A stretch of DNA of 64,000 nt, taken from positions 62,001-126,000 of the forward strand of contig NZ_FXTD01000009.1 of NCBI RefSeq assembly GCF_900182635.1, read 5' to 3'. The position numbers and the translations under genes were made by a program. Positions 13,335 through 60,490 of this stretch are shown here, piece after piece. Every line of letters begins with the position of its first letter. The first letter of the stretch is position 1. A model generated the notes under the pieces. That model saw only the letters and a list, made by a program, of their open reading frames with translations. It made no database searches and was not told the DNA's origin. This stretch comes from Halorubrum cibi (GTDB lineage: Archaea; Halobacteriota; Halobacteria; Halobacteriales; Haloferacaceae).

Positions 13335-13544
13335 CGCGTACCGACGGGACATCGCTTGCCTGCCTCGTATCCCAGACGGTCAGAGTAGTCTCGCTCAGTA
13401 CAGCCACCTTTTTCATCGTCGGGTGCCCTCGCTCACTGCGTTCGCTTCGGGAACCGCTCCTCGAAAAACCTGGAGGGAAAAAGCCGACTCCGCCGTCTTC
13501 GACGGCTCCGTCGGTGAACCGCTCGCTTCACTCGCGGATGCTCA
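13335..13544. other. Non-coding stretch between the DCC gene and repeat copy 1
   Basis: No gene is seen. It holds two hairpins of the tandem-GA type on the minus strand. At 13426-13451 stems CCC/GGG and GC/GC are separated by facing GA pairs; at 13519-13537 CCGC/GCGG encloses GAGTGAAGCGA. A short A-rich run lies near 13460-13490. Confidence 0.6.
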
Positions 13545-13920
13545 CTACAGACGAAGCAACGAGCGATCGCTGGAGCGGTGGCGCGCCTCCGAGTGCCCCG
13601 GAGGGGCGCGAGGAGCCCGCGAGGGATTCCGCGAGCGAAGCGAGCGGCGAGGTTGGGGAGGCATGAGGTGCGGTGCTGTGCGGGGTGGGACTCAAAGGGG
13701 CAGTCGCCGGCGGCGGAGCCGCCGGCTGCCAGAGGCGCAGAGCGCCTCGCTGTCGCGAGGGCGACGCCCGGCGACGTAAGCACCGGAGCGAGCATCGCGA
13801 GCGAGGCGCGCAGCAAGCCGCGCGAGTCCTCGCGACTGGGGCTTTGGAGACCGTCACCGCCCCAGCAACAGTCTCATTTTCATCAACTCGTTTCCGATCG
13901 AAACACCCGTTCTATAAGCA
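13545..13920 (+). repeat. Structured dispersed repeat, copy 1 (candidate ncRNA)
   Basis: Non-coding element between the DCC gene and ilvD. In order: a start ACGAAGCAACGAGCGATCGC; hairpin H2 at 13587-13615 (CTCC-GA-GTGCCCC, GGA loop, GGGGCGC-GA-GGAG); hairpin H3 at 13629-13647 (CCGC around GAGCGAAGCGA); and GGTTGGGGAGGCATGAGG. Then come the constant arm CAAAGGGGCAGTCGC (13693-13707) and its partner GCGACTGGGGCTTTG (13832-13846), enclosing about 124 nt that include GTAAGCACCG. The conserved tail CACCGCCCCAGCAAC and GAAACACCCGTTCTATAAGC ends the element. The strand is assigned from the GA-GA and GGG oppositions, which favour RNA from this strand. Confidence 0.8.
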
Positions 13921-25710: not shown

Positions 25711-25806
25711 GCGCTCGCTCCGCTCGTTGCGCGCGACCGGTAGGATTCGAACCGCTCCTGCTCCCTCGCTCCAGCCGACTCGCTTCGCTCGTCGGCTTCC
25801 GTTCAG
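25711..25806 (-). repeat. tRNA T-arm-like relic and tandem-GA hairpin
   Basis: On the minus strand, GGTTCGAATCCTACCGGTCG (starting near 25753) resembles a tRNA T-arm plus part of an acceptor 3' strand ending in GCGCA, but it does not fold as a T-arm. A perfect seven-pair hairpin lies at 25773-25797: AGCCGAC, GAGCGAAGCGA, GTCGGCT. The stretch sits immediately 3' of tRNA-Leu and may be an old attachment-site duplication. Confidence 0.4.
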
Positions 25807-33325: not shown

Positions 33326-33461
33326 CTCGATCACCGCGGTTCGGGCGCGATGACCGTCCTCGAGGCGCCGCCACCGGATCGACTTATACACGTTGTCGGC
33401 GCTGGTCGCTCGGGAGACGCCGTCCGTCCCTTTTAAGCGTCCGCCGGACGCCGACTCCGGT

Positions 33462-41219: not shown

Positions 41220-41290
41220 GCGCCGGTGGTCTAGTGGTAGGACCTGAGCCTTCCAAGCTCATGGCCCGGGTTCAAATCCCGGCCGGCGCA
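41220..41290 (+). tRNA. tRNA-Gly (anticodon UCC)
   Basis: A 71-nt tRNA. Acceptor GCGCCGG pairs with CCGGCGC, discriminator A. The anticodon stem TGAGC/GCTCA encloses CTTCCAA with anticodon TCC. D-arm and T-arm (CCGGG-TTCAAAT-CCCGG) are intact. Its 3' end is duplicated twice downstream. Confidence 0.95.
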
Positions 41291-41355
41291 TCCTCCCGGC
41301 ACATGACGAACGAGGAGCGACAGCGACGAGTGAGTCCGTGCCGGGAGGATGCGCC

Positions 41356-41408
41356 GAGGGTTTGAACCCTGGAAGTCGCAGCCCGCGCAGCGAGCGAAGC
41401 GAGCGAGC
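41356..41408 (+). repeat. tRNA T-arm-like relic, copy A
   Basis: AGGGTTTGAACCCTGGAAG followed by TCGCA, GCGCAGC and GAGCGAAGCGA. It resembles a tRNA T-arm and acceptor 3' strand followed by a tandem-GA hairpin module. Related stretches occur at 41550-41590 and, inverted, at 25711-25757. Confidence 0.5.
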
Positions 41409-41422
41409 AGGACCGTTTTCCT

Positions 41423-41446
41423 CCGGTTCAAATCCCGGCCGGCGCA
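41423..41446 (+). repeat. Duplicated 3' end of tRNA-Gly, candidate attachment site
   Basis: From 41425 the 22 bases GGTTCAAATCCCGGCC plus GGCGCA repeat exactly the last 22 bases of tRNA-Gly 156 bp upstream. Such exact 3'-end repeats mark attachment sites of tRNA-targeting integrases. Confidence 0.7.
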
Positions 41447-41505
41447 CTCCCTTCGGTCGTGCGCCGCCCGTACTCCCGCTCGCTCACCCAGTTCGCTCGC
41501 GAGAG

Positions 41506-41519
41506 TCCCGGCCGGCGCA
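41506..41519 (+). repeat. Second partial duplicate of the tRNA-Gly 3' end
   Basis: TCCCGGCCGGCGCA repeats the last 14 bases of tRNA-Gly. It is consistent with a second integration or excision scar downstream of the first. Confidence 0.6.
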
Positions 41520-41549
41520 TTTCTCGAACGAAGTGAGAGGAATCGCCGA

Positions 41550-41590
41550 ATGGGATTTGATCCCTATCAGTCGCGCGCAGCGAACGACCA
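41550..41590 (+). repeat. tRNA T-arm-like relic, copy B
   Basis: TGGGATTTGATCCCTATCAG followed by TCGCGCGCAGCGAACGAC. It aligns with copy A (41356) and with the inverted copy near 25711, differing by point changes. Confidence 0.45.
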
Positions 41591-47469: not shown

Positions 47470-47819
47470 GTCAGTACAGACGAAGGAACGAGCGATCGCC
47501 GGAGGGGTGGCGCGCCTCCGAGTGCCCCGGAGGGGCACGAGGAGCCCGCGAGGGACGCTGCGAACGGAGTGAGCAGCGAGGCTGGGGAGGCGTGAGGCGC
47601 GGTTGCGGGGCGGTCGGGTGGGACTCAAAGGGGCAGTCGCGAGGCGGGCGCAGGCGACGTAAGCACCGCAACGAGAGAGTGAGCGAAGCGAACGATCGAG
47701 TGAGGAGCGCAGCGAGCGTGCGCCCGCCTCGCGACTGGGGCTTTGGAGACGTTCACCGCGCCAGCAACGATCCTCTTCTATTCTCCTCGACCACTCACGA
47801 AACACCCGCCATATAAGCC
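47470..47819 (+). repeat. Structured dispersed repeat, copy 2 (best-preserved, candidate ncRNA)
   Basis: Non-coding element downstream of the DUF457-like pair and convergent with the oxidase genes. H2 lies at 47516-47544 (CTCC-GA-GTGCCCC, GGA, GGGGCAC-GA-GGAG). H3 lies at 47556-47578 (CGCTGC, GAACGGAGTGA, GCAGCG). The conserved box GGCTGGGGAGGCGTGAGG follows. The long-range stem pairs 47626-47652 with 47719-47745: CAAAG/CTTTG, three facing G-G, then 19 perfect pairs (CAGTCGCGAGGCGGGCGCA). The distal GTTCACCGCGCCAGCAAC and GAAACACCCG tail are present. An antisense TATA-like TTATAT lies at the far end (about 47811-47817). Confidence 0.85.
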
Positions 47820-53453: not shown

Positions 53454-53822
53454 GTCGTTGCTGACGCGGTTTTAGCTTTCGGAGCCCCAGCCGCTGGACC
53501 GTCCAAATCGAGACACAGAGTCTCGGTGAACACCAGCAAAGCCCCAGTCGTGAGGACTCGGGGGCCTCGCTGCGCGCTTCAGTCGCTCACTTCGTTCGCT
53601 CCTTCCAGTGCTTACTTCGGCCGCCATCGCCCTCACGACTGCCCCTTTGAATCCCACCCCGCCCCGCGGCCCCGCACCTCATGCCTCCCCAGCCTCGTCG
53701 CCGGACTACGTCCGGCTGCCAGAGGCGCGTAGCGCCTCGCTGCGACTCCCTTCGGTCGTCGCGTCCCTCGCGGGCCGGTCGCGGGCCGAAGGCCCGCTCC
53801 CGGGCGCGCCACCGCGACAGAG
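53454..53822 (-). repeat. Structured dispersed repeat, copy 3, interrupted (candidate ncRNA)
   Basis: Minus-strand copy between the two GTPase genes. H2 lies at 53775-53803 (CCGG-GA-GCGGGCC, TTC, GGCCCGC-GA-CCGG) and H3 at 53742-53762 (GCGAC, GACCGAAGGGA, GTCGC). The long-range stem pairs 53631-53649 with 53537-53555 (CAAAGGGGCAGTCGTGAGG with its partner), enclosing GTAAGCACTG. The loop carries a nested tandem-GA hairpin at 53581-53603. The distal segment is split: GTTCACC ends near 53525, and CGCGTCAGCAACG resumes near 53470 after about 55 extra bases. An extra hairpin is inserted between H3 and the conserved box. Confidence 0.78.
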
Positions 53823-60164: not shown

Positions 60165-60490
60165 TGCTAGTAGAACGGGTGTTTCGTGAGTGATCGGATC
60201 GATGAGAACGGGACCGTTGCTGGCGCGGTGAACACGTCCAAAGCCCCAGCCGGCTCCAGTCGAGGGCCTCGCTGGGCTCCTCACTCACTTCGTTCGCTGC
60301 GGTGCTTGTGTCGGCCGTCTTCCCGGAGCCGGCTGCCCCTTTGAGTCCCACCCCGCACAGCACCGCAGCCTCACGCCTCCCCAGCCTCGCGGTTCGCTCC
60401 GCTCACCGCGTCCCTCGCGTTCCGGTCGCGGGCCGCCGGCCCGCTCCCGGGCGCGCCACCGCGATCGCTCGTTGCTTCGACTGAGGAGTC
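60165..60490 (-). repeat. Structured dispersed repeat, copy 4 (candidate ncRNA)
   Basis: Minus-strand copy beginning about 48 bp after the glutamate synthase stop. It starts TCGAAGCAACGAGCGATCGC. H2 lies at 60423-60451 (CCGG-GA-GCGGGCC, GGC, GGCCCGC-GA-CCGG) and H3 at 60388-60410 (CGCGGT, GAGCGGAGCGA, ACCGCG). The GGCTGGGGAGGCGTGAGG box follows. The long-range stem pairs 60325-60343 with 60239-60257: the same CAAAG-GGG-CAG cap, but the stem below reads CCGGCTCC/GGAGCCGG. Loop GACACAAGCACCG. The distal GTTCACCGCGCCAGCAAC and GAAACACCCGTTCTA tail are present. Confidence 0.83.

Follow-up and report, generated by a model that had tools for sequence, protein, structure and literature searches.

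Tandem-GA hairpins of haloarchaeal intergenic DNA as arms of a dispersed, folded repeat with a G-rich core

Introduction

The REP sequences and REPINs of bacteria are high-copy, palindromic repeats of intergenic DNA, associated with RAYTs (PMC3116915, PMC8049555). In Haloquadratum, the palindrome-associated elements known as PATEs are related to IS605 and carry IS605-type palindromes near their termini (PMC3119063). According to a study of Haloferax volcanii, potential quadruplexes are abundant in this organism, and quadruplexes have been visualized in both its DNA and its RNA (PMC12873603).

Here, we analyze a stretch of 64,000 nucleotides from Halorubrum cibi (referred to as the window; position 1 is its first letter), which contains four copies of a previously undescribed element, namely a folded repeat with a G-rich core. 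Like REPINs and REP sequences, this element is intergenic and palindromic, reaches high copy number, forms paired inverted copies and persists for long in a lineage. It differs from them in its length (~250-300 nt), in its tandem GA arms and a core resembling a G-quadruplex, and in that several genomes rich in copies are without a Y1-type transposase; nor was a GTAG tag seen by eye. The Haloferax volcanii study deals with generic motif predictions, and its main text apparently does not describe the element family (PMC12873603). With PATEs, the element shares its haloarchaeal hosts, the lack of a transposase, the palindromes and the high copy number, but it has an internal core, and genome G000 has no Y1_Tnp.

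A further likeness is structural. DNA mini-hairpins of the type d(GCGNAGC) are extra-stable and have a C-GNA-G triloop with sheared pairs. Mini-hairpin DNA has been used as a stabilizer (PMC4686876). The hairpins described here share the C-GNA-G triloop, but they are natural, occur genome-wide, and are set inside longer helices with tandem GA/GA pairs. To our knowledge, no conserved genetic element based on a quadruplex and supported by comparative evidence has been described in haloarchaea.

Results and Discussion

Tandem-GA hairpins in the window

An earlier note on the window had cited ten sites with a tandem-GA pattern. At all ten, the pattern is borne out; that is, one strand reads stem-GA-inner stem-triloop-inner stem'-GA-stem'. 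This GA-sense strand is the minus strand for seven of the hairpins, and the plus strand for three (13629, 41520 and 47556). Five of the sites (13629, 47556, 53581, 53742 and 60388), including the most regular ones, are arms of the four element copies. The others are adjacent to tRNA genes (25773; 41477 and 41520) or lie in intergenic DNA beside copy 1 (13426 and 13519). Because these five are outside the element copies, the hairpin module also stands alone. They are listed here together with a perfect hairpin at 41441-41467 that had been overlooked:

13426..13451, minus strand: doubly nested tandem-GA hairpin with a GCA loop and one additional A next to the outer GA; intergenic, just upstream of copy 1
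13519..13537, minus strand: tandem-GA hairpin with a single G.T in the inner stem (GT GAA GC); intergenic, just upstream of copy 1
25773..25797, minus strand: solitary tandem-GA hairpin directly downstream of tRNA-Leu, with no G-core nearby
41441..41467, minus strand: solitary tandem-GA hairpin downstream of tRNA-Gly, CGGCGCAC-GA-CC-GAA-GG-GA-GTGCGCCG; identical sequence in genome G009
41477..41501, minus strand: doubly nested tandem-GA hairpin with a TGG loop
41520..41542, plus strand: solitary tandem-GA hairpin whose outer T.G pair is T-A in genome G259

To compare the frequency of these hairpins with chance, the check that had been set for them, we searched both strands of the 12.3 kb of intergenic DNA in the window with the descriptor GA-NC-NNN-GN'-GA, in which N and N' are paired and the outer stem has at least 3 pairs, and used 500 dinucleotide shuffles of the same DNA as control. 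Intergenic and genic DNA were separated by gene calls (81% coding) from a model of codon usage, for which the long open reading frames of the window itself served as training set. The expected excess is found: there are seven matches, compared with a mean of 0.31 and a maximum of 3 in the shuffles. When the loop is restricted to GNA, the intergenic DNA of the window still yields seven, compared with a shuffle mean of 0.02 and a maximum of 1, and the ~52 kb of genic DNA in the window yields none. The descriptor was counted in the window and in the stretches compared with it; the genome-wide figures given below are from searches with core patterns and covariance models.

The second, outer GA/GA proposed for 13426-13451, 41477-41501 and 53581-53603 is present at each. 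Two other aspects of the pattern require revision. The three bases described as a free loop do form a triloop, but the triplet is constrained to GNA (GAA, GGA or GCA), with a closing pair that is mostly C-G. The inner stem NC...GN' does occur, but only as a special case, since inner stems range from 2 to 6 bp.

Architecture of the element

The flanks of the hairpins at 13629, 47556, 53742 and 60388 are homologous, and the hairpin at 53581 sits in the tip of helix P3 of the copy that includes 53742. Over its length, the element consists of GCGGTGGCGCGCC, hairpin H1 (X-GA-Y-loop-Y'-GA-X'), GCGAGGGA, hairpin H2 (the module reported earlier), GAGGCTGGGGAGGCGTGAGG, a variable stretch, GGGTGGGACTCAAAGGGGC, the long helix P3, GGGGCTTTGG and TTCACCGC. 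The invariant core is GGG-Y-GGG-ACT-(P0 SAAAG)-GGG-(P3, any sequence)-GGG-(CTTTS'), where P0 is a five-base helix. The ends of the element are fuzzy, and the GCGGTG and CACCGC ends are able to pair. The copies in the window and their parts are:

13575..13860, plus strand: element copy 1, from the 5' block GCGGTGGCGCGCC to CACCGC
13629..13647, plus strand: H2 of copy 1, CCGC-GA-GC-GAA-GC-GA-GCGG
13685..13701, plus strand: 5' half of the G-core of copy 1, GTGGGACTCAAAGGGGC; tract 1 (GGG) ends with its first G
13838..13845, plus strand: 3' half of the G-core of copy 1, GGGGCTTT, i.e., G-tract 4 and the 3' strand of P0
47504..47759, plus strand: element copy 2, absent at the orthologous place of G259
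47556..47578, plus strand: H2 of copy 2, CGCTGC-GA-AC-GGA-GT-GA-GCAGCG
47618..47634, plus strand: 5' half of the G-core of copy 2
53523..53815, minus strand: element copy 3
53742..53762, minus strand: H2 of copy 3, GCGAC-GA-CC-GAA-GG-GA-GTCGC
53641..53657, minus strand: 5' half of the G-core of copy 3, GTGGGATTCAAAGGGGC
53581..53603, minus strand: hairpin at the tip of P3 in copy 3, with doubly nested tandem GA, AG-GA-GC-GA-AC-GAA-GT-GA-GC-GA-CT
60225..60462, minus strand: element copy 4, absent from G259
60388..60410, minus strand: H2 of copy 4, CGCGGT-GA-GC-GGA-GC-GA-ACCGCG
60335..60351, minus strand: 5' half of the G-core of copy 4

This comparison of sequences shows that the tandem-GA/GNA hairpins are peripheral arms of a dispersed intergenic element of haloarchaea. 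The familiar GAGCGAAGCGAGC runs, which the earlier note had suspected of being one structured module and not just low complexity, do behave like such a module, with a C-GNA-G triloop, tandem GA/GA and complementary stems, but the hairpin is not the unit. That is, the claim about GAGCGAAGCGAGC stands for the hairpin, while the larger biological object is the element with the G-core.

Further features recur in other copies. At the tip of P3, two or more conserved types are seen, including GACGYAAGCACCG/GCGCAGCGA and AGCGACCCCTATC/GATATGTCGCTGAGCGACC (L063, L066, L067, L070, L072 and L105), which are apparently exchangeable modules. Many Halorubrum copies (e.g., L030, L042 and L055) have another conserved stretch, resembling GAAACACCCGTTCTATAAGCA, in their 3' flank, ~60-90 nt past GGGGCTTT. 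Immediately 3' of the element, 100-220 nt beyond the core in all subfamilies, the A+T content is 0.41-0.44, versus ~0.35, and the 5' side shows no such rise; this possibly reflects a target preference.

Conserved pairing of the stems

To assess whether P3 is a helix, we set the 12 bases that follow GGGGC against the 12 that precede GGGG in 208 copies, anchored by the flanks and with no alignment fitted. Across this 12-bp stem, 88% of the pairs are Watson-Crick and another 5% are G.T, whereas partners shuffled between different copies give 46% Watson-Crick pairs. G.T pairs outnumber A.C pairs by about 5:1 (123 vs 24). This excess is not expected from double-stranded DNA, or from the C-rich strand; thus, we conclude that the fold acts on the G-rich strand, in single-stranded form. 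The first pair of P0 is swapped between C-G (146 copies) and G-C (120), and matched changes such as AAAG/CTTT to AACG/CGTT are seen. In the RNAalifold consensus there are 25 pairs, 21 of them with changes on both sides.

The hairpins vary in the same manner. Stem covariation, which the earlier note had named as a test, is found at the homologous H2 slot, where several different outer and inner stems are all paired. Among the 109 hairpins at this slot, 55 have a readable 2x2 internal loop, which is GA/GA in 49. Tandem GA pairs also break P3 repeatedly, and the same pairs recur in H1 and H2.

The G-rich core and its two subfamilies

Tracts 3 and 4 form a symmetric GGG/GGG internal loop that divides P0 from P3, and GGG-Y-GGG is located three bases before P0. 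Retrieval by GACTSAAAGG gives copies whose upstream tracts are 92-98% G, with T as the single base between them in 86%. The tail GGGGCTTT, which is in no retrieval pattern, is 95-99% conserved when anchored by the P3 arm alone. A likeness to CRISPR repeats (GTGGGAYTGAA) was set aside, since what else the core contains is a helix that pairs and covaries.

Genomes with few copies revealed a second subfamily, whose core is CTGG-Y-GGA...AAAG-GG-C-GA-(P3)-GA-G-GG-CTTT. The four tracts are of equal length and change together, as 3-3-3-3 in 193 copies and 2-2-2-2 in 25, with no mixed copies (three-base tracts upstream with two-base tracts in the loop, or the reverse) and irregular upstream tracts in 20; some subfamily search patterns fixed tracts 1 to 3, and the unbiased part of this evidence is therefore tract 4 throughout, tract 1 in subfamily 1, and those subfamily 2 copies found by the covariance model of subfamily 1. 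Exceptions with a shorter first tract are found in G001 and G007. The change from three to two bases, which separates the subfamilies, may have been a single evolutionary event.

From this sequence evidence, we infer that P0 and P3 flank a G-quadruplex formed by stacking of the four tracts, with three layers in subfamily 1 and two in subfamily 2. The haloarchaeal cytoplasm is rich in K+, at molar concentration, and thus favors quadruplexes. In L092 and L321, P3 is deleted and GGGGCCGGGGGCTTT is left. Copies without P3 retain the four G-tracts, and in ViennaRNA modeling the quadruplex is the preferred prediction for them. Minimal subfamily 2 copies of ~50 nt, consisting of the core and a short stem-loop, are also observed (L369, L371, L372 and L374-L378; family f9 and others).

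Copy number and distribution

Genome G000 contains 62 matches to the core with at most 2 mismatches, compared with 1 for the reversed pattern. With at most 1 mismatch, the subfamily 1 core is found in 172 of the 242 genomes of the class, with controls near zero; subfamily 2 is found in 136 of the 242, in up to 68 copies (controls, 0-1). Across 30 genomes of the same genus as G000, subfamily 1 alone varies from 7 to 167 copies per genome. When a covariance model was built from the core, it found the element in 38 of 43 haloarchaea, but in none of the 204 other Halobacteriota searched. Every named contig that contains the exact 19-mer is haloarchaeal, apart from one of Bacteroidales (L107), a match that we attribute to chance because it has neither the tail nor the stem. 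Searches of curated Rfam models against the window returned only tRNA, and a sub-threshold mir-981 match outside the element; the element itself had no match. Likewise, the core sequence gave no match as a search string in the full text of the papers searched.

The copies are intergenic. This confinement, the spread over most haloarchaea, and the lack of any match in the viral contigs and phages searched, with only partial matches on 7 haloarchaeal plasmids, are consistent with a site that organizes the chromosome or controls recombination, i.e., a mark of quadruplex or hairpin DNA bound by a protein that might, for example, pause forks or bound domains. We nevertheless consider such a role improbable. 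Some haloarchaea carry no more than one or two copies, and others lack the element; the sites turn over rapidly, as described below; and a replication-strand bias was rejected, since the copies along one chromosome of G175 are 47 forward and 48 reverse.

Turnover of copies and exchange of their parts

We compared four sites between species of the same genus, and found copies that some species share and others lack. G259 has neither copy 2 nor copy 4 at the orthologous places, where only 30-45 bases are unaligned, and G009 has an extra copy at window position 33332-33365. At the place of copy 3, G259 retains the 5' half alone, which demonstrates that loss occurs. What G259 has at site D is the remnant of a deletion, and a scar may persist at site A of the window; some absences are thus losses. 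Gain of copies is likely as well. No target-site duplication, of the kind expected for a MITE, was seen at the four sites, none of which provided a clean empty site.

Between orthologous copies, whole P3 cassettes can differ, and each is still internally paired; in copy L014, the loop of P3 is inverted between intact arms. Recombination between copies is therefore active. Together with the half copies and the deletions, such active recombination at hairpins is what one would expect if the copies were passive palindromes, that is, remnants of old insertion sequences whose arms are kept complementary by templated repair (strand switching) and not by selection on the fold. This explanation appears very improbable to us. 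Correction of this kind would erase GA/GA mismatches and GNA loops, yet both are kept; a double-strand process predicts equal numbers of G.T and A.C pairs, and not a fivefold difference; and the G-tracts, which are outside both helices, are nonetheless among the most conserved positions.

Known routes of mobilization were also considered. Five copy-rich genomes (G000, G009, G011, G025 and G193, with about 55-100 copies each) have no match to Y1_Tnp (PF01797), and mobilization by IS200/605 or RAYT was rejected on this basis. Similarly, the reverse transcriptase PF00078 was found in 0 of 22 element-rich genomes, while controls matched, so that reverse transcription, as by a retro-element or a derivative of a group II intron, was rejected. 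Inverted pairs, with head-to-head cores ~27-28 nt apart, are found in g26 and in Haloarcula rara; they are not the rule in Halorubrum.

DNA or RNA

The same fold could in principle belong to a family of structured non-coding RNAs, in which a transcribed RNA, with a quadruplex and GA-kinked helices, acts in trans or in untranslated regions and might, for instance, bind a protein or stabilize a transcript; its copies would arise by duplication and be kept by dosage or local regulation. The strong compensatory change, with its asymmetry of the G.U type, would fit an RNA, as would a consensus column with C-G, U-G and U-A. The non-canonical internal loops conserved in the element are typical of RNA modules, and the P3 module GACGYAAGCACCG/GCGCAGCGA looks RNA-like. 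Outside G000, moreover, there is a mild excess of copies with the upstream gene in sense (99 vs 68). Against this, no TATA-like site is enriched in the 180 nt before the core of the G000 copies, and the orientation relative to genes is inconsistent between genomes. (A 3'-end bias in G000, with the downstream gene on the minus strand in 37 cases and on the plus strand in 16, was rejected, as it is not upheld in other genomes.) Copy numbers that differ so widely within one genus, the absences from orthologous sites and the lack of an Rfam match also argue against an RNA. Triloops flanked by GA are GNA in 62%, whereas tetraloops are fewer and only 8-31% of them are GNRA. The C-GNA-G triloop is exceptionally stable in DNA. 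The lack of a TATA-like box, the inconsistent orientation and the dominance of C-GNA-G favor single-stranded DNA; an RNA family, although the strongest of the alternatives, seems rather unlikely to us.

The explanation that we rank first, and to which we assign about an even chance, is that the element is a non-autonomous, REPIN-like resident of the genome, dependent on its structure and moved as single-stranded DNA by a hypothetical factor. Its G-rich strand would be exposed in single-stranded form, e.g., at replication forks. The folded strand would then be recognized by the hypothetical factor, encoded on the chromosome, which would copy or move the element. Selection on the fold would keep the stems, the GA pairs and the G-tracts while the sequence drifts, and cassettes would be swapped between copies by recombination. 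More tentatively, and with the balance somewhat against it, we propose a new class of element, present order-wide in haloarchaea: a quadruplex-duplex hybrid that would serve as a recognition unit in single-stranded DNA (or RNA) in a cytoplasm with molar K+, with two- and three-layer subfamilies, and that would spread without a Y1 transposase or a reverse transcriptase. Because copies within one genus range from 7 to 167 per genome, the mobilizing factor is a concrete target. Quadruplex-duplex folding can be tested on the hundreds of natural variants, and the family accounts for part of the familiar 'low-complexity' in haloarchaeal intergenic DNA.

Solitary hairpins and tRNA genes

In 314 kb, comprising the window and stretches of G009, G259 and G170, 17 of 29 GA/GNA hairpins have an element block no more than 220 nt away. 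The remainder include solitary hairpins beside tRNA genes, some of them kept between species with changed stems. At the place in G259 that matches the 25773 hairpin, for example, there are two tandem-GA hairpins with other stems. Lastly, at window positions 41220-41560, the 3' end (GGTTCAAATCCCGGCCGGCGCA) of tRNA-Gly (41220-41290) is repeated, wholly or in part, with tandem-GA hairpins in between; these repeats resemble footprints left by integration events that recurred at the tRNA gene.
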